Source: a virus. From it: 49,553 nucleotides of DNA. A model generated the notes under the pieces. It did no database searches, was not told where the DNA came from, and was given only the letters and a program-made list of their open reading frames with translations. Location: positions 1 to 49,553 of the IMG/VR virus record IMGVR_UViG_3300002906_000001. One strand, given 5' to 3'. Below, one piece after another: positions 21,324 through 46,093 of this stretch; within the stretch, counting starts at the first letter, position 1, and each line of letters opens with the position of its first letter. Position numbers and translations under genes: made by a program.

Positions 21324-21527
21324 TCAGTCTAGAGCTTCGAAGTCGGCGGCGACGAGCTTGGCGATCTTAGCCGGATCGCAGCGATGTATCTCACCGTGAC
21401 CGTCCACGAGCCGCCAACGCCCGTTGTCATCTTCCCAGGCCAAGCCACCCTTCCCGCAGCGCCGGCACTCTACGAGCGCACCTGACTCGTCTTCTTGGTC
21501 ATCAAACTGATCGTCAAACCAGTTCAT
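21324..21527 (-). CDS. Small acidic protein with possible zinc knuckle
   Basis: The product has 67 residues from the ATG at 21527 and an acidic N-terminus (FDDQFDDQEDES). A CRRC pair (about residues 20-23) and a later HRC (about 48-50) could bind one zinc. Unknown function. It is the last gene of the minus-strand operon. Its start is embedded in the final codons of the upstream HNH gene, and no good ribosome-binding site is visible, so it may rely on translational coupling. An in-frame ATG at 21536 adds three residues. Confidence 0.6.
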   Translation of the reverse strand: MNWFDDQFDDQEDESGALVECRRCGKGGLAWEDDNGRWRLVDGHGEIHRCDPAKIAKLVAADFEALD

Positions 21528-21972
21528 AAGAATCAAGGTAATTCAAAGCAGCCCTAACCAAAGCAGGATCGTCTTTGAATTGTCCTAGAGCAAGATTGCA
21601 AACACGGCACAACCACCCCCTAACTTTTCCAGTAATGTGGTTGTGGTCTAAGTGCTGATTTTGCGTTGTAAGCGTACTTAAATCAACTCGACAAATAGCG
21701 CACAAACCATTTTGCAATAGCCACAGATGCGCGCCATCAGTTCCGTAATCTCTTTTTCTTTTGTACGCTCGTTGACTATCAGCATTTGCTTTTCGCCATG
21801 CGCGTTGAGTTATCTTAGCTCTTTCTTTGTGGCCAGAATAGTACACTCTACTTTGTGCATTTAATTTTTCTTTATGCCTGCTGTAGTATCTCAGTGATGC
21901 GGCTTTTACTTTGTCTGGATGTTTCTTACGCCATTTAGCGGATGCGGCTCTTAACGCGAGTTTATTAGCCAC
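21514..21972 (-). CDS. HNH endonuclease, endonuclease VII-like
   Basis: The 152-residue protein has a basic N-terminal half (repeated KWRKKHPDK, YYSRHKEK, YYSGHKER motifs, typical of DNA-binding linkers of this class) and an endonuclease VII-like module: CAICR (about 93-97), LDHNHITGKVRG (about 108-119) with the catalytic D-H-N-H, then WLCRVCN. It lies between the SNF2 helicase gene, which it overlaps by 8 bp, and the last small gene, which it overlaps by 14 bp. Precise insertion at gene junctions beside replication genes is typical of homing endonucleases. AT-rich codon use contrasts with the neighbouring helicase gene. Start GTG 21972. Confidence 0.8.
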   Translation of the reverse strand: MANKLALRAASAKWRKKHPDKVKAASLRYYSRHKEKLNAQSRVYYSGHKERAKITQRAWRKANADSQRAYKRKRDYGTDGAHLWLLQNGLCAICRVDLSTLTTQNQHLDHNHITGKVRGWLCRVCNLALGQFKDDPALVRAALNYLDSYELV

Positions 21973-24585: not shown

Positions 24586-25110
24586 TCAAATGTGCGCCCA
24601 ACGACGACGTTTTTGGATATTACAGATATTGACCGGGCTTATGCAGAAACGTAATGCTAGTTCTCGGCCCGTGACTTTGCCGCGCAAGCGGCGAATTGCT
24701 AAAACTTCTCGGTTAGTGAGTTTGGCGGCGTAACTACTCTCACCACGCGGTTGGCGACCGTGTTTGATCGTATCGCCGTGGTTGGCTTTGCGTGTATCGT
24801 AGCGTAAATTTCTTGGTGTATTATTCAGATGATCGCCGTCATTGTGGCAAACATCTTTACCATACGGACGTGGACCGATAAACGCAAAAGCAACGGTTTG
24901 GTGAATGAGGATACGCTTACTGTCATTATTTTTCTTTAGCGTAACTTTCTTGTAACCAAAACCGTCTTTATGCAATGAACGGAGCTGTCCGCGATAAAAA
25001 CGACGACGCCCATCTGAGAATGCAACCCAACGTCCGACTGAACGCACTCGGCCAATACTACTGATTTCGTACCAGCCAACGTATCCAGGAATAGGTTTCC
25101 AATGTTCCAT
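24586..25110 (-). CDS. HNH homing endonuclease with NUMOD4 domain
   Basis: The 174-residue protein has a NUMOD4 N-terminus (WKPIPGYVGWYEISSIGRVRS, about 4-24), a central HNH module (IHQTVAFAF, then DVCHNDGDHLNNTPRNLRYDT, about 85-106) and a C-terminal helix-turn-helix-like DNA-binding segment (AAKLTNREVLAIRRLRGKVTG onward). This is the I-HmuI/I-TevIII-like class, not the endonuclease VII-like class of the other HNH genes here. It sits 2 bp downstream of the DNA polymerase gene, a classic homing target. Its AT-rich codon use differs from the genes downstream. The ATG at 25110 follows the polymerase stop by 2 bp and has AAAGAATAG upstream. Confidence 0.85.
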   Translation of the reverse strand: MEHWKPIPGYVGWYEISSIGRVRSVGRWVAFSDGRRRFYRGQLRSLHKDGFGYKKVTLKKNNDSKRILIHQTVAFAFIGPRPYGKDVCHNDGDHLNNTPRNLRYDTRKANHGDTIKHGRQPRGESSYAAKLTNREVLAIRRLRGKVTGRELALRFCISPVNICNIQKRRRWAHI

Positions 25111-29294: not shown

Positions 29295-29536
29295 GTCTTC
29301 CTCCCTGTGCGCTTGCGCTTGAGAGCGGCGGCGCGTTCTGCGATCATTGGCATTCCGCATCCAGTACAGCACGGATGATCGCCGGGCGCTATCTCGTTCG
29401 GCCCAATGTCGCGCCGCATGCCGCAGCCGATACATGTCGCTGTCACCGCGACGCTTACTGCGCGCTCTCGCATAAGATTGCATCCACCATTCCACGCTCG
29501 GCGATAATTCTTCGGCTTATGTTTGTCTAGTGACAT
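29291..29536 (-). CDS. Small zinc-ribbon protein
   Basis: The 81-residue protein has two cysteine pairs, CIGC (about 35-38) and CTGC (about 57-60), spaced as in a zinc ribbon, a basic start (MSLDKHKPKNYRR) and a basic tail AAALKRKRTGRKT. The tail is encoded by the first copy of a 35-bp direct repeat whose second copy encodes the tail of the upstream gene. GAGGAGATGAG before the ATG at 29536 is a strong site. Possible DNA or RNA binding; function unknown. Confidence 0.75.
   Translation of the reverse strand: MSLDKHKPKNYRRAWNGGCNLMRERAVSVAVTATCIGCGMRRDIGPNEIAPGDHPCCTGCGMPMIAERAAALKRKRTGRKT
29299..29333. repeat. 35-bp direct repeat, copy 1
   Basis: Identical over 35 bases to 29543-29577. It covers the final 11 codons of the zinc-ribbon gene and the AGGGAGGA ribosome-binding site of the next gene (YkgJ-type). 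The flanking bases differ, so the duplication has exact limits. Confidence 0.95.
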
Positions 29537-29537
29537 C

Positions 29538-29708
29538 TCATCTCCTCCCTGTGCGCTTGCGCTTGAGAGCGGCGGCGAAATGCTTGCAGGCGCGATATAG
29601 AGCATCATCTGAATTTCCTATTTCACGATAGGAACCACCAACGATCCAGCTTCGATACCACCTCATCGCCGCCTTCTCCAGTAGCGCCCGCAAGGTCTTG
29701 GCGGTCAT
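29538..29708 (-). CDS. 56-residue basic protein
   Basis: This gene encodes 56 residues: MTAKTLRALLEKAAMRWYRS at the start, a short GGSYREIGNSDDALYRAC centre and the tail FAAALKRKRTGRR. Its ATG at 29708 overlaps the stop of the DUF2800 gene (ATGA), and its TGA is 1 bp from the next ATG. This tight packing and the shared tail with its neighbour support it as real. The function is unknown; the product looks like a small helical nucleic-acid-associated protein. Confidence 0.7.
   Translation of the reverse strand: MTAKTLRALLEKAAMRWYRSWIVGGSYREIGNSDDALYRACKHFAAALKRKRTGRR
29543..29577. repeat. 35-bp direct repeat, copy 2
   Basis: Second copy of the 29299-29333 repeat. It covers the last 11 codons of the 56-residue gene and the GGGAGGAG ribosome-binding site of the zinc-ribbon gene. 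The interval between the two copies is exactly one gene long (244-bp period), as if that gene were a cassette added at a duplicated junction. Confidence 0.95.
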
Positions 29709-34832: not shown

Positions 34833-35135
34833 ATGAGCGACGCCGAACGCATCAAACGTTTTCTCGAAGACGGTCACCAACGCAATCGTGAGATTTTCGA
34901 AAACCTCATCGAGCTGCGCGGTGCATTTCGCGCCAACATCACATCGGAGCTGTGCAATATTCGGCTCTACATGACCGCGCTGCAACCGTGTACGTGCTTT
35001 CCGAACATCTCGGAAGTCATCATGCAGAGCGGCGTCGCACTCAGCGCTGTTCTGTGCAAAGAGCACGGTTGGGATATACATGAAGTCATCGCCGACATCG
35101 ACATGATGTTCAAGGCGCGAGCGCTCGAAAAATAG
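34833..35135 (+). CDS. Early protein of unknown function
   Basis: The 100-residue product is helical, with a charged N-terminal half (DAERIKRFLEDGHQRNREIF) and three cysteines in the middle (LCN, PCTC). No homologue is recognised. The ribosome-binding site is AGGAG with 7-nt spacing. It is the first gene of the plus-strand early operon and probably among the first phage proteins made; such genes often act on the host. Confidence 0.75.
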   Translation: MSDAERIKRFLEDGHQRNREIFENLIELRGAFRANITSELCNIRLYMTALQPCTCFPNISEVIMQSGVALSAVLCKEHGWDIHEVIADIDMMFKARALEK

Positions 35136-35146
35136 GAGAAGCAACA

Positions 35147-35362
35147 ATGGAGAAGGACCAAGTAATCGAAATCAGCCAAGTCGCCAATGGTTTCATCGTG
35201 CGGCGTGCACCTGGACACTGGTTCAAGGATGAACAAAACAACACGCAGTGGACCGGAATCAGCGGTGACTACTACGTGTTTCAAAGTATCGCAGAGCTGG
35301 TTATGTTCTTGTCGGTGCACTTCACTCACCGCAGTACAGTCGTCATCACCGACGCAAAATGA
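35147..35362 (+). CDS. Small early protein
   Basis: The 71-residue product has a beta-rich start (KDQVIEISQVANGFIVRRAP) and a helix SIAELVMFLSVHF. It is unrecognised. AGGAGAAG lies 7 nt before the ATG, and the end overlaps the next gene by 4 bp. Confidence 0.7.
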   Translation: MEKDQVIEISQVANGFIVRRAPGHWFKDEQNNTQWTGISGDYYVFQSIAELVMFLSVHFTHRSTVVITDAK

Positions 35363-35614: not shown

Positions 35615-35956
35615 ATGCGCACAAAACGAAATGTCGTGGTGTTCGGTGCTGGCAATACGTACACCGATGAAAAAACATACTCCGCTGAAGGATGCCGTCA
35701 TCCTGAGTTTCATTGGCTACAACTGCGACCAATTCAACGAGTGACAGTGAAACAACCGCGCGTCATCGATACGCTGCCACTAGTCGCTGATAAAGTTATT
35801 CGCGTTCGTTTTGAAGTTGACGGCGACCAAAAATGTCGTGTAGTTCTTATCCCTAACGAGTACACCCTTGCTAAAAAAGAAAAAGTAGTGTGGGAAGGTT
35901 TTTGTGTTTTTATCGACGAAGCATTTCAATCAATCATGGAAGAAGCTCTGCTGTGA
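35615..35956 (+). CDS. Early protein of unknown function
   Basis: The 113-residue product has alternating strand and turn character, including LPLVADKVIRVRFEVDGDQK and a C-terminal WEGFCVFIDEAFQSIM. It is unrecognised. It starts 1 bp after the preceding stop and overlaps the next gene by 4 bp (GTGA), so translation is probably coupled. Codon use is more AT-rich than in adjacent genes. Confidence 0.65.
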   Translation: MRTKRNVVVFGAGNTYTDEKTYSAEGCRHPEFHWLQLRPIQRVTVKQPRVIDTLPLVADKVIRVRFEVDGDQKCRVVLIPNEYTLAKKEKVVWEGFCVFIDEAFQSIMEEALL

Positions 35957-36213
35957 TAACGCTATTCGTAGGCGGTAGTCATGACGGTGCGCGTCTTGAG
36001 ATCGACGAAGCGCGCAAGGAAGTGCGCTTGCCGGTGATCGAAAGTTTTGCGATGGGCTCTATCACCGTCGAGACAAAAGAAACAGACCTTTACCGAAGCG
36101 AGCATTACGTGCGGTGGACGAACAACGACAAGAGCATTTCGGTCTTTGCGCTCAACCACATGTCGGAGAGCGACATGCTGCGCGCGTTGGTCTATGGGTA
36201 CAGGCGCAAATGA
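35953..36213 (+). CDS. Small early protein
   Basis: The 86-residue product starts at GTG 35953 with (V)ITLFVGGSHDGARLEID and resembles small phage proteins with a GG.HDG turn near the N-terminus and Y..E.YVRW in the middle. Its C-terminal codons YRRK and the stop are part of the 13-bp repeat CAGGCGCAAATGA (36201-36213), whose second copy precedes the 37374 gene. Without the intervening insertion this gene would overlap 37374 by 4 bp. Confidence 0.72.
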   Translation: MITLFVGGSHDGARLEIDEARKEVRLPVIESFAMGSITVETKETDLYRSEHYVRWTNNDKSISVFALNHMSESDMLRALVYGYRRK

Positions 36214-36440
36214 GTGTATGCACTAAGTGCCGCCTGAGAAAATCAGTGGGTGCATTTCATCGAAATAAGAATCGTCCCGATGGTTTATGCGGCCACTGCA
36301 AACAATGCCGAAGCGCGGACGCTAAAAAGCGCAACAGCGCACCGGAAGTAAAAGCGCGGCAGGGGAGACTTCGCGCTACGCTAAAAGTAAAAGTAAAAGA
36401 ACGCCTGCGCAAATCCAATAAAAAAGGGAATTATATACAT
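36210..36440 (+). pseudogene. Truncated HNH (endonuclease VII-like) homing gene
   Basis: The frame begins MSVCTKCRLRKSVGAFHRNK and continues DGLCGHCKQC: the double C-x2-C zinc finger and basic linker (KKRNSAPEVKARQGRLR) that form the N-terminus of this endonuclease class. The catalytic D-H and RGLLC-x2-CN core is missing. After about 36430 the frame stays open but runs antisense through the membrane-protein gene, so the rest is not homologous sequence. The gene appears to have been cut by the insertion of that gene. Its ATG overlaps the previous stop (ATGA). Confidence 0.7.
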
Positions 36441-36461
36441 GACTCCCTTCCGGGGAGTCAT
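36439..36461 (-). terminator. Hairpin downstream of the antisense membrane-protein gene
   Basis: ATGACTCCC (36439-36447), 5-nt loop, GGGAGTCAT (36453-36461): a perfect 9-bp stem. It lies about 67 bp after the stop of the minus-strand gene, at the junction with the HNH remnant. A T-rich run follows on the minus strand after about 15 nt, so this is probably the gene's own terminator, as expected for an independently expressed moron. Confidence 0.5.
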
Positions 36462-36527
36462 TCAAAATCCCGGCGACAGGCCGGTATTGCGACATGGGCG
36501 GCGCTGTTCATGATTCTGCTAATGGCC

Positions 36528-37250
36528 TTACTTCTCTTTGCGTTGGTAATTAAACGTGGAATTTTCGTCGAGCACAAAATGTGCTGCTTCTTTGTCCCAT
36601 ACAAAACAAAAACTGGCGATGTATTTTTTGCGCCAATAGTCTCTAAATTTAATCGTAGCGATGATCCAGAACTTGGCCGAACCTTCACGGACGCTTTTAA
36701 CGTCGCCCGCAGTGAGTACAGGCGCATCAATCGTGTCCTGAATTCTTCTGACATCCTGTCCCGGCAACAGTTGAAGCCATCCAACCCTCTTTTCGACAGA
36801 GAAGGTGTTGACCGCACTGGATTTGGTGAGGTGGTCTCCATAAAAACTCGCGAATCTAATTTCACTTGGGAAGGCGGGCGTCTTGCCGTAATTCCGCATT
36901 TCAATCTGAACACTACATTTGGCCATTTGTCCCCACTCGTTTTCAAAACCACGCGCCCAAATACCGGTGGGCTCCAAGTAGGGCAATTCCAGGCTAAGGG
37001 CGGAGTCGGCGGCGTCGCGGGCAGCTTCAGCGGATTTCTCGGCGGCACTCACGCTTTTTACCAGCACGTCTTCCTGTCGAATCATCCAAACAAACTGGAA
37101 CCAAACAACGAAGGAAAGCATGAGCGTAAAGAACGCTACGGGGTCTTCAAACGTCTTTGCAGTGAGCCCGCAAATATCGGAGCAAGTTCCAAGTGGTTTG
37201 GCATCGCTTCCTTGATCTTTTTTGGCAGTGGTATTGCCATTCTTAGTCAT
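36528..37250 (-). CDS. Antisense moron: membrane-anchored protein with GKTPA-type domain
   Basis: The 240-residue protein has a short N-terminal tail, one membrane helix (FFTLMLSFVVWFQFVWMI, about 40-57), a coiled-coil rich in Ala and Ser (SVSAAEKSAEAARDAADSAL, about 66-85) and a beta-rich domain with PYLEPTG and IEMRNYGKTPAFP (about 128-140). The N-YGKTPA motif after a membrane helix and an S-A-x-x-A-A-R coiled coil is seen in many chromosomal and prophage proteins of proteobacteria with unknown function. It is the only minus-strand gene in a plus-strand operon. Start choice is uncertain: a GTG at 37349 would add 33 residues. A role such as superinfection exclusion is speculation. Confidence 0.7.
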   Translation of the reverse strand: MTKNGNTTAKKDQGSDAKPLGTCSDICGLTAKTFEDPVAFFTLMLSFVVWFQFVWMIRQEDVLVKSVSAAEKSAEAARDAADSALSLELPYLEPTGIWARGFENEWGQMAKCSVQIEMRNYGKTPAFPSEIRFASFYGDHLTKSSAVNTFSVEKRVGWLQLLPGQDVRRIQDTIDAPVLTAGDVKSVREGSAKFWIIATIKFRDYWRKKYIASFCFVWDKEAAHFVLDENSTFNYQRKEK

Positions 37251-37373
37251 CGCCGCAATCAATGGGGCCAAAGTTGCCTGATTCTCGGCTTGTTTTTCTT
37301 TCTTATGATGCTCTTTGCAGCTCGCAGTCTGTGAAAAACAACGACTCACCCCTTCTTCTCGAAGCAGGCGCAA

Positions 37374-37571
37374 ATGATAGAACGTGAAGTTAGCGACGGC
37401 GTGCTTGTATCGTACAATGAAGACCGCAAAGCTGGCGTACCACTAGTAATGACGAGAGATTTTAGGGATGGCATGCGCTACGCAGCAAAACTCATCCGCG
37501 AATACGAGCCCGAGCACAACAAGCTCTACCGTGAGCGGCTTGCGCAGCACATCGAGGAGAAAGCGAAGTGA
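37374..37571 (+). CDS. Small early protein ending in QHIEEKAK
   Basis: The 65-residue product begins MIEREVSDGVLVSYNEDRKA and has a helical end (RYAAKLIREYEP, then RLAQHIEEKAK). Its last eight codons lie in a 24-bp repeat shared with the next gene. Function unknown. Its ATG lies in the 13-bp repeat that brackets the upstream cassette; its stop overlaps the GTG of the next gene. Confidence 0.7.
   Translation: MIEREVSDGVLVSYNEDRKAGVPLVMTRDFRDGMRYAAKLIREYEPEHNKLYRERLAQHIEEKAK
37544..37567. repeat. 24-bp direct repeat, copy 1
   Basis: Identical to 37735-37758. It spans the last eight codons (QHIEEKAK) of the 37374 gene and the GAGGAGAAAG ribosome-binding site of the next gene. The copies are 191 bp apart and bracket one gene. 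Confidence 0.95.
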
Positions 37572-37762
37572 GTCGTTCCGATTTCAAATATCTCAAACAA
37601 ACTTCGGTGTGGCGAAATGCCCCGCGCAAAGTTCGTGAAGATTTTACTGAGTACATGACTGAGCGCGAGTACGGACAAATCGAAACACTCGACGCATTCC
37701 ACCATTTTTACGCGGGTTGGAATTGCCACGCGATGCAGCACATCGAGGAGAAAGCGAAATGA
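37568..37762 (+). CDS. Small early protein, also ending in QHIEEKAK
   Basis: The 64-residue product starts at GTG 37568 ((V)SRSDFKYLKQTSVWRNAPRK) and has FHHFYAGWN before the shared tail. Apart from the tail it is unrelated to its neighbour. The GTG overlaps the preceding stop and the TGA overlaps the next ATG. Its bracketing by identical gene-end repeats suggests it was inserted as a cassette. Unknown function. Confidence 0.7.
   Translation: MSRSDFKYLKQTSVWRNAPRKVREDFTEYMTEREYGQIETLDAFHHFYAGWNCHAMQHIEEKAK
37735..37758. repeat. 24-bp direct repeat, copy 2
   Basis: Second copy of 37544-37567. It spans the last codons of the 37568 gene and the ribosome-binding site before ATG 37759. In the first copy the next start is GTG, in this copy ATG. 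Confidence 0.95.
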
Positions 37763-37866
37763 CGCCCCCACTCCACAAACCGGGTTGGATTGAAAGCGAA
37801 TTTGGTGCGTATCGTCGAGGATTGTCACCATACAAGCGACGCGCATTTCAAACTCGTAGTTGCTGA
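37759..37866 (+). CDS. 35-residue microprotein
   Basis: This frame encodes MTPPLHKPGWIESEFGAYRR followed by GLSPYKRRAFQTRSC. It starts with an ATGA overlap and a GAGGAG site in the 24-bp repeat. Pro- and basic-rich, with no membrane segment. It is short, so the support is the junction and ribosome-binding site only. Function unknown. Confidence 0.5.
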   Translation: MTPPLHKPGWIESEFGAYRRGLSPYKRRAFQTRSC

Positions 37867-37905
37867 AGCGCTATTGATGTTGTTGAACCGAACAGAAAAA
37901 ACAAA

Positions 37906-40641: not shown

Positions 40642-40663
40642 TAGGGCTTCATCGGGAGCCCTA
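40642..40663 (+). promoter_or_regulatory. Hairpin covering the ribosome-binding site of the HTH gene
   Basis: TAGGGCT (40642-40648) pairs with AGCCCTA (40657-40663), with the GGGAG ribosome-binding site partly in the loop and the first base of the ATG in the stem. Folding would limit translation of the 40663 gene. Confidence 0.4.
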
Positions 40664-40899
40664 TGGTAGCTCGTAATAAATTGCGCGTTGTGAAACACCG
40701 CGAGGGAGACTACACCCACGGTGAAGCGCATCCTAAGGCGATGCTCAGTGACCACGAGATCGAGCTGATGCGTCAGCTCCATGAGGAGTACCCAGTGGGC
40801 GATCCCAGGCACCTGGGGTATCGCCGACTGGCTAAGAAGTTCAACGTAGCCAAGACGACCGTGAGGGCGATCTGCAACTACAAGGTGCGCAACAACTAG
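40663..40899 (+). CDS. Standalone helix-turn-helix DNA-binding protein
   Basis: The 78-residue product has a basic N-terminus and a helix-turn-helix region: AMLSDHEIELMRQLHEEYP (about 27-45) then GYRRLAKKFNVAKTTVRAIC (about 53-72). The same domain style is found at the C-terminus of the NUMOD4 homing endonuclease here and in small phage regulators. It is flanked on both sides by repeat arrays, so it may be an autoregulator, an origin-binding protein or a packaging-site factor. A hairpin covers its ribosome-binding site. Confidence 0.7.
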   Translation: MVARNKLRVVKHREGDYTHGEAHPKAMLSDHEIELMRQLHEEYPVGDPRHLGYRRLAKKFNVAKTTVRAICNYKVRNN

Positions 40900-40927
40900 C
40901 GTCCAGGGCGCTCACTACGCCTCATAG

Positions 40928-41096
40928 CTCCGTCACCGTAGCTCACCGCCCGCAGCGCTGTCACCGTAGTGGATGCTGCCCGCTACCGCAGCTCGCAGCT
41001 CCGTCACCGTAGCTCTGTCACCATAGCCCTGTCACCGTAGCCCTGTCACCGTAGCCCTGTCACCGTAGCTCACCGCCCGCAGCGCTGTCACCGTAG
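40928..41096. repeat. 14-bp tandem repeat array upstream of terS
   Basis: About eleven 14-bp units of the form CYCTGTCACCGTAG. Seven keep the core GTCACCRTAG: 40928-40941, 40956-40969, 40999-41012, 41013-41026 (one change), 41027-41040, 41041-41054, 41055-41068, and again 41083-41096. Divergent units CTCACCGCCCGCAG occur at 40942-40955 and 41069-41082, and GCCCGCTACCGCAG at 40978-40991. A larger block (about 40932-40972) is repeated at 41059-41099. A 14-bp period cannot keep a reading frame. Iteron-type origin, packaging site or binding array are the main options. Confidence 0.9.
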
Positions 41097-41106
41097 TGGA
41101 CGCTGC

Positions 41107-42211: not shown

Positions 42212-42516
42212 CTTCCAGAAAATCAAAGCTGCGCAGGTTGCAGCGCATTGTCGATGCGCTGCGGCACTTCATAAAAAATAAAAGGGATTGGGATTTGGTG
42301 GAACTGGCCTTGGCAGTGGACGCGCATTTCAGTCTCACCAAACGCGAGCGAACGCGCCTTCGCAAAGAGATACGCATGGCGCGGTTGTCGCGGTCCGATG
42401 CGCAGAAACTAAGACGTAAGCGTGAGCGCGAAGTCGGTGCGGGCGGACCTAACTGGACGGCGGCGCTGCGCGCGATGCGAAAGAAAGAAGCGCTGCGTCG
42501 GCGAGGTATATGGTGA
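42208..42516 (+). CDS. Small basic helical protein
   Basis: The 102-residue product starts at GTG 42208 ((V)TSRKSKLRRLQRIVDALRHF) and is very rich in Arg and Lys, with repeated helices (LTKRERTRLRKEIRMARLSR, AQKLRRKREREVG). It could bind DNA near the terminase or associate with the packaging complex; this is inference. It ends RRGIW with TGA at 42514-42516, inside the start of the HNH gene. GTGATGG at this point recurs at the terL start. Confidence 0.65.
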   Translation: MTSRKSKLRRLQRIVDALRHFIKNKRDWDLVELALAVDAHFSLTKRERTRLRKEIRMARLSRSDAQKLRRKREREVGAGGPNWTAALRAMRKKEALRRRGIW

Positions 42517-42983
42517 TGGAAACAAAAGAAGAACGAAATAAAAAGGCGCTCATGCGTAATCGTATAAAACGATCAACGTTTGAAGGTCGGGCTGCGTGGA
42601 ATGCAAGGATGCGAGAATACAATAAACGTCCTGAAGCTCGTGCAAAAAGAAAAGAAAGAGATAATCGTGAGCATGTGAAAGAACGAGGACGAGCTTACGC
42701 ACGTTTAAAAAAGACAGGTATGAACGACGCTGTACGCGCGAAGTTGATGATTTTGCAAAACGGATGTTGCGCGGTATGCGGCACCTTGTTTAGCGGTGAG
42801 GGGAATCTAAGAGCGCATGCAGATCACGATCATGTAACTAAAAAAGCACGCGGTTTGCTCTGTCACTATTGTAATATCGCTGAAGGAATGATAAAAGAAA
42901 CTGGTGCGAAGCCGGAGGATTTTGCTCGTCGTCTTCAACACTATTTAACCAATCCGCCTGCTGATATTTTAGAGCTTACGTGA
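42510..42983 (+). CDS. HNH endonuclease, endonuclease VII-like, inserted before terL
   Basis: The 157-residue protein has a basic linker (KRPEARAKRKERDNREHVKE) and an endonuclease VII-like core: CAVC (about 86-89), RAHADHDHVTKKARG (about 101-115) with D-H-D-H, then LLCHYCN, and a tail ending NPPADILELT. It is inserted exactly at the junction between the 42208 gene and terL, and the short sequence GTGATGG is present at both ends. AT-rich codon use contrasts with terL. The TTAGAG in its last codons serves as the ribosome-binding site of terL. ATG 42510 or 42516 could be the start. Confidence 0.85.
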   Translation: MVMETKEERNKKALMRNRIKRSTFEGRAAWNARMREYNKRPEARAKRKERDNREHVKERGRAYARLKKTGMNDAVRAKLMILQNGCCAVCGTLFSGEGNLRAHADHDHVTKKARGLLCHYCNIAEGMIKETGAKPEDFARRLQHYLTNPPADILELT

Positions 42984-45483: not shown

Positions 45484-45633
45484 ATGCCGCTCGTCAAATC
45501 TGCAAGCAAGGAAGCGCTGTCGAAGAACATCGCTCGGGAGATCAAGAGCGGAAAGCCGCCTGCACAAGCCGCTGCGATTGGCTACGCTGTGCAGCGCCAG
45601 CTTCAGCAGCAAAAACCGAAGGTGCATAAATAA
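45484..45633 (+). CDS. 49-residue conserved phage protein
   Basis: The product [20 protein letters not shown] then [20 protein letters not shown] matches a very common small phage protein style: MPL.KS.SK.A.S.NI..EI..GKP..QA.AI. It is typically found near terminase and portal genes; function unknown. It starts 4 bp after the preceding stop. Its 3' end abuts the HNH gene. Confidence 0.8.
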
Positions 45634-45634
45634 A

Positions 45635-46093
45635 GTGGCCTGGGCGCTTCATCATCGCAAAGAAAAAAGTCGCTTAGCGACGCAGCGATATCGTGACACG
45701 CACAACACGCCAGAAGATAAGAAAAAACGTGTCGAGAAACAGAAGGAGTACATGAAACGTCCAGGGATGTTAGCTAAGAAAAAAGCCTACGACACATCGT
45801 TGGAAGCGAAGGCTAAACGGCGGTTAAAGCGTACTGGAATTACTGCGGCTCTTTTTGAAATACTTTGGCGATTTCAAAACGGGCGCTGCGCGATCTGTGA
45901 GCGCGATCTTGTTGAAAGGGCAACGCACGCAGATCACTGTCACGATACAAAGCAACCGCGAGGTTTGCTTTGTTTTAATTGCAACGTTATAGAGGGGGCG
46001 ATAAAAAAAGTTGGTTTGACACCTTCAGGTTTCAGTGAGCGGTTAGAGCGTTATCTGAATAACCCACCTGCAAGTGTTTTGGAGCTTGTATGA
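45635..46093 (+). CDS. HNH endonuclease, endonuclease VII-like, inserted before portal
   Basis: The 152-residue product (GTG 45635) has a basic linker (RYRDTHNTPEDKKKRVEKQK, KRPGMLAKKKAYDTSLEAKA) and the endonuclease core CAICERD (about 89-95), ATHADHCHDTKQPRG (about 101-115), LLCFNCN, tail NPPASVLELV. It follows the 49-residue gene by 1 bp, and its stop overlaps the portal ATG (ATGA). The codons of LEL supply GGAG, 5 nt before the portal start. AT-rich relative to its neighbours. A homing insertion beside the essential portal gene. Confidence 0.85.
   Translation: MAWALHHRKEKSRLATQRYRDTHNTPEDKKKRVEKQKEYMKRPGMLAKKKAYDTSLEAKAKRRLKRTGITAALFEILWRFQNGRCAICERDLVERATHADHCHDTKQPRGLLCFNCNVIEGAIKKVGLTPSGFSERLERYLNNPPASVLELV

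Follow-up and report, generated by a model that had tools for sequence, protein, structure and literature searches.

Gene content between the 35953 and 37374 genes

The window analysed here is the whole contig IMGVR_UViG_3300002906_000001, 49,553 bases from an uncultured tailed phage, and is the only sequence of this virus that was searched. Between two small + strand genes, starting at 35953 and 37374, it carries the remnant of an Endo VII-type HNH gene and a membrane-protein gene on the opposite strand (Table 1). The original prediction described this segment as a cassette bracketed by a 13-bp repeat, CAGGCGCAAATGA, acquired in two steps, whose removal would restore an operon coupled by ATGA.

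Table 1. Features of the segment and its borders (contig coordinates; L003 is a locus of the close relative)
Feature	Position	Strand	Description
Left-flank gene	35953..36213	+	86 aa, GTG start; 59% identical homolog in L003; weak match to PHROG 25918 (E 7e-5)
CAGGCGCAAATGA, copy 1	36201..36213	+	Exact; holds the stop of the 35953 gene (36211-36213) and the ATG that opens the 36210 ORF
Endo VII-type HNH gene, N-terminal Cys4 part	36210..36437	+	phrog_1035, E 9e-9
Perfect 9-bp hairpin	36439..36461		Behind the 3' end of the - strand gene; not followed immediately by a strong T-run
Opposite-strand ORF	36528..37247	-	239 aa from ATG; predicted to have one membrane helix, a coiled coil and an Ig-like (ApaG-like) sandwich
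CAGGCGCAAATGA, copy 2	37365..37377	+	Exact; holds the ATG of the 37374 gene
Right-flank gene	37374..37571	+	65 aa; conserved from ~37455 on; N-terminal ~28 residues unlike those that two homologs have in common
Small gene with 28-bp bracketing repeat	37568..37762	+	Repeat copies at 37544-37571 and 37735-37762 (27/28)

The proposed HNH remnant is present: over its residues 1 to ~73, the 36210 ORF matches phage Endo VII-type nucleases in their N-terminal Cys4 region, with a profile match to phrog_2340 (E 2e-7) in addition to phrog_1035. The Endonuclease_7 catalytic domain (PF02945) was not found in 36201-37377 by a search that recovers four other genes of the contig, and the homology of the remnant stops about where the 9-bp hairpin begins. 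The + frame from 36210 stays open to 37334, opposite the membrane-protein gene. We set aside this 374-aa frame as one real gene, its matches being confined to the first ~73 residues; it also runs codon-in-register opposite the membrane-protein gene, and the codon scores of the two (0.02 vs 0.09) are not decisive alone.

Both the opposite-strand membrane-protein gene and its own hairpin, as originally proposed, were recovered as an ORF and a strong stem downstream of it. A second short stem (36470-36484) is weak and terminator-like. No promoter for the antisense gene was recognised in a scan of 35900-37900 for sigma-70-like sites, and Rfam and tRNA searches of the contig gave no match. At the sensitivities used, the 239-aa protein had no sequence relatives in viral contigs, phages, plasmids or genome contigs, and it matched nothing in Pfam, NCBIfam or PADLOC. 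A structure model built without relatives (mean pLDDT 60, low confidence) contains a predicted β-sandwich that resembles ApaG/Ig-like folds (Z 10.8, rmsd 2.4-2.8, 115 residues), and the viral structure that Foldseek ranks best (E 8e-6, low TM-score) belongs to a 'transmembrane protein' from Rhizobium phage RHEph01. On a model of this confidence, the protein could be an accessory of the moron kind that works at the membrane of the host, where superinfection exclusion and host modulation are examples of what it might do.

Codon usage sets both genes apart, with scores of 0.09 for the antisense ORF and -0.13 for the HNH part as compared with 0.17-0.41 for 17 phage genes, scores of short genes being noisy.

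The corresponding place in a close relative

A helicase scan identified one close relative, IMGVR_UViG_3300015245_000070 (helicase 72% and terminase 91% identical), which is covered by loci L003, L078, L117, L119 and L120. Homologs of the genes at 34833, 35359, 35953, 37374 and 37906 occur there in the same order as in the contig, and the 35953 and 37374 homologs enclose a single, unrelated + strand gene of 107 aa (L003:5313-5636) that overlaps its upstream gene by ATGA. This slot of the relative lacks the HNH remnant, the antisense gene and CAGGCGCAAATGA. Since conserved flanks enclose unrelated DNA in the relative, the place is one of variable DNA at a gene junction. Other small genes of the same operon differ as well: those at 35147 and 37568 are absent from the relative and that at 35615 is replaced, with a clean ATGA junction in place of gene 35147-35362. 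The uninterrupted 35953-37374 junction expected from the original prediction was sought in relatives and not found, the slot of the relative being filled by the 107-aa gene.

Single-sequence searches with the products of the two flanking genes returned no relatives in viral contigs, and none were found in genome contigs. An alignment search and a degenerate DNA motif added just the known relative and a second locus, L118; scans with the terminase and DUF932 yielded many loci, but among these the small flanking genes had homologs nowhere except in the known relative and L118.

L118, an otherwise unrelated contig, contributed an additional member of the 37374 family through the motif scan (L118:10357-10184). 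Its N-terminus matches that of L003 (CDPPC..RVA) and differs from that of the 37374 product, whose homology to both begins near residue 28, at about base 37455. An N-terminus unlike the one common to L003 and L118 indicates that the foreign DNA probably ends inside the 37374 gene, running past the second copy of CAGGCGCAAATGA to a border near 37455.

The 13-bp repeat at the segment edges

CAGGCGCAAATGA is exact at both junctions, as had been claimed, and the contig holds no third occurrence. Joining the two copies would indeed let the stop of the 35953 gene overlap the start of the 37374 gene as ATGA. At the first copy, the 35953 gene is already coupled to the HNH-like ORF by an ATGA, and the coupling of the operon is therefore broken at the right side only.

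Exact direct repeats of at least 13 bp lying within 2 kb of each other number 23 in the contig (~10 of them exactly 13 bp), compared with 3 to 5 under Markov models of its sequence. Most of the 23 are without visible meaning, so that a 13-bp repeat by itself is weak proof. Its placement is more unusual. Among 1542 ATGA pairs within 2 kb, the CAGGCGCAAATGA pair has the longest upstream match (9 bases), for which the expected number, estimated by extrapolating the decay of the distribution, is roughly 0.03-0.1. Among 29 hand-listed gene starts it ranks second, behind 37568/37759 with 24 bases and ahead of a next best of 4. Placement of CAGGCGCAAATGA at gene junctions is thus rarer than a chance repeat, which is suggestive but not compelling; a repeated gene-end sequence of 13 exact bp is present at both borders of the segment, at borderline significance.

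We rejected a transposon target-site duplication, as no terminal inverted repeats were found inside the duplication. The sole inverted pair found in the region (37340-37360/37557-37577) is imperfect, is not placed at the two ends and was judged to be at chance level.

Gene-end repeats and nuclease genes elsewhere in the contig

The neighbouring gene 37568-37762 is a clearer example of repeat-bracketed anatomy than the segment with its 13 bp. Its 28-bp repeat is the 3' end (...QHIEEKAK, stop) that two consecutive genes have in common; in the relative, such an end occurs once, and gene 37568 is missing together with the next 143 bases. Apart from these further 143 bp, the relative shows a bare junction with a single repeat copy, whereas no bare junction with a single CAGGCGCAAATGA was found there, L003 having another gene and no copy of the 13-mer.

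An exact 35-bp direct repeat lies at 29299-29333 and 29543-29577, a region that the contig of the relative stops short of. It closes two small - strand reading frames that follow one another, giving both the same C-terminus (..AALKRKRTGR..), and is probably another gene-end copy. Within the contig we regard gene 37568 as a clear case of shared gene ends as recombination sites, the 29299/29543 repeat as a probable one and the 13-bp-bounded segment as a doubtful one. Across the contig and 196 fetched loci, 12 pairs of nearby ORF ends agree in 20 or more of the final 24 bases (in L014, L039, L051, L099 and L111, among other loci), as against 0-2 at control offsets. Some of these pairs may be gene duplications or other repeats, and the copying of gene ends may be widespread in the small-gene regions of phages.

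Tandem repeats of the GTCACCGTAGC type (14-bp units and longer) cluster at 40926-41100, between genes 40663-40899 and 41183, and could mark a region of control or of replication.

Three intact Endo VII-type HNH genes of the contig (1558-2178, 42510-42983 and 45578-46093) are absent from the relative. The relative has short empty sites (32 bp or less) in place of 1558-2178 and 45578-46093 and different DNA at the place corresponding to 42510-42983; no repeats of at least 10 bp span any of the three insertions. The contig of the relative does not extend to two further nuclease genes, a fourth one of Endo VII type and a NUMOD4/HNH_3 gene on the - strand (21514-21972 and 24586-25110).

Discussion

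We interpret the segment between the 35953 and 37374 genes as cargo that occupies a variable slot within an operon of small genes, with a probability of about three in four. The relative with both flanks and other DNA between them, atypical codon usage, the different N-terminus of the 37374 product and the other variable small genes of the operon count for this reading, as does, with the reserve due to a model, the match of the predicted membrane-protein fold to a phage protein. With a single close relative, the change could have gone either way, as a gain in the window or as a replacement in the relative, and the assembly could be chimeric. Acquisition at a variable slot is supported: of the original claim, what stands is that the segment is variable and absent from one close relative, while a precise repeat-to-repeat insertion and a two-step order are not shown.

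As cargo, the segment probably arrived by recombination at or near gene ends that preserved reading frames and most stop-start overlaps. The right border of the exchange would lie inside the 37374 gene, and such exchanges may have been steered by short gene-end sequences in common (13 bp at the segment, 28 bp at the neighbouring gene).

More specific histories can be set against the same observations. The DNA might have entered precisely between the two copies of CAGGCGCAAATGA, using or duplicating a 13-mer at the 35953/37374 junction, so that its removal restores the operon, either as originally modelled or by homologous recombination at a short boundary sequence. An exact repeat right at both gene junctions, with the longest ATGA-anchored match within 2 kb, argues for this history, as do the same anatomy with 28 bp in gene 37568, absent from the relative, and the published precedent of Island3 gene 68. 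The main evidence against it is the N-terminal part of the 37374 product, which lies outside the repeats and is also foreign to its family. In addition, no relative with a bare 35953-37374 junction was found, CAGGCGCAAATGA is absent from the junctions of the relative, repeats of 13 bp are common enough in the contig, and three Endo VII genes are missing from the relative without a spanning repeat of at least 10 bp. We consider precise insertion unlikely. The repeat could instead be a coincidence of similar gene starts, each an AGG-containing ribosome-binding stretch followed by ATGA, to which we give somewhat less than an even chance: ATGA and purine-rich stretches recur at operon junctions, and other matches of 6-8 bases upstream of [AG]TGA occur without meaning, but the 9-base upstream match exceeds that of every other tested start pair except 37568/37759. 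The repeat at the segment edges is real, but it is no proof of how the block arrived.

Similarly improbable, in our estimate, is the order of events proposed originally, in which an Endo VII homing gene came first and a moron with its own terminator then replaced its catalytic half. The homology of the remnant does stop at the hairpin that marks the beginning of the antisense unit, and intact Endo VII genes are numerous in the phage and vary between relatives. Against this, the remnant could have come in one block, truncated beforehand; zinc-finger modules like it have matches at the C-termini of other PHROG families; the scan revealed no promoter-like site for the antisense gene; and no intermediate was found, nor any relative in which the HNH gene is complete and the antisense gene missing, which leaves 'homing gene first, moron second' a conjecture.

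The preferred reading, cargo in a variable slot, makes the segment one of the places where a mosaic phage genome swaps DNA, a kind of event that is already known. It shows at base level a phage swapping small genes at operon junctions with translational coupling retained. Gene ends in common have been proposed in the literature as recombination sites and are rarely caught. A broader idea, that small-gene turnover in this phage group runs via short gene-end repeats (13, 28 and 35 bp in one genome) that preserve stop-start coupling, strikes us as a long shot. If it were true, an acquired gene would bear a copy of the 3' end of its upstream neighbour and could be lost exactly, and the 13-bp-bounded segment would be a large, composite example.

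Comparison with known systems

In mycobacteriophage Island3, the C-terminal 18 residues of gene 68 resemble those of gene 67, and gene 68 is absent from Brujita (PMC3029335). The segment is alike in placing small genes between conserved neighbours, with a gene-end repeat at both borders and absence from a relative; it differs in that ~50 bp are in common in Island3 as compared with 13 bp here, and in that its relative has another gene and no empty site. Gene 37568-37762 matches the Island3 case better than the segment does.

With phage morons, the segment shares an opposite-strand gene that has a hairpin behind it, atypical codon usage, and presence in one genome with absence from a relative between neighbouring genes, though L003 has another gene there. 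It differs in the endonuclease remnant alongside and in that no promoter was recognised for its gene. Free-standing HNH homing endonuclease genes, such as the T4 mob genes (PMC2988022) and Endo VII-like genes, offer a further parallel: the remnant is an Endo VII-type N-terminal region at the junction of genes conserved in relatives and is missing in the relative, yet this putative nuclease, unlike those, has no catalytic domain. The segment is ordinary phage mosaicism with published precedent; mosaic exchange close to gene boundaries, morons, and endonuclease genes that stand free between conserved neighbours are all known (PMC3029335, PMC2988022).
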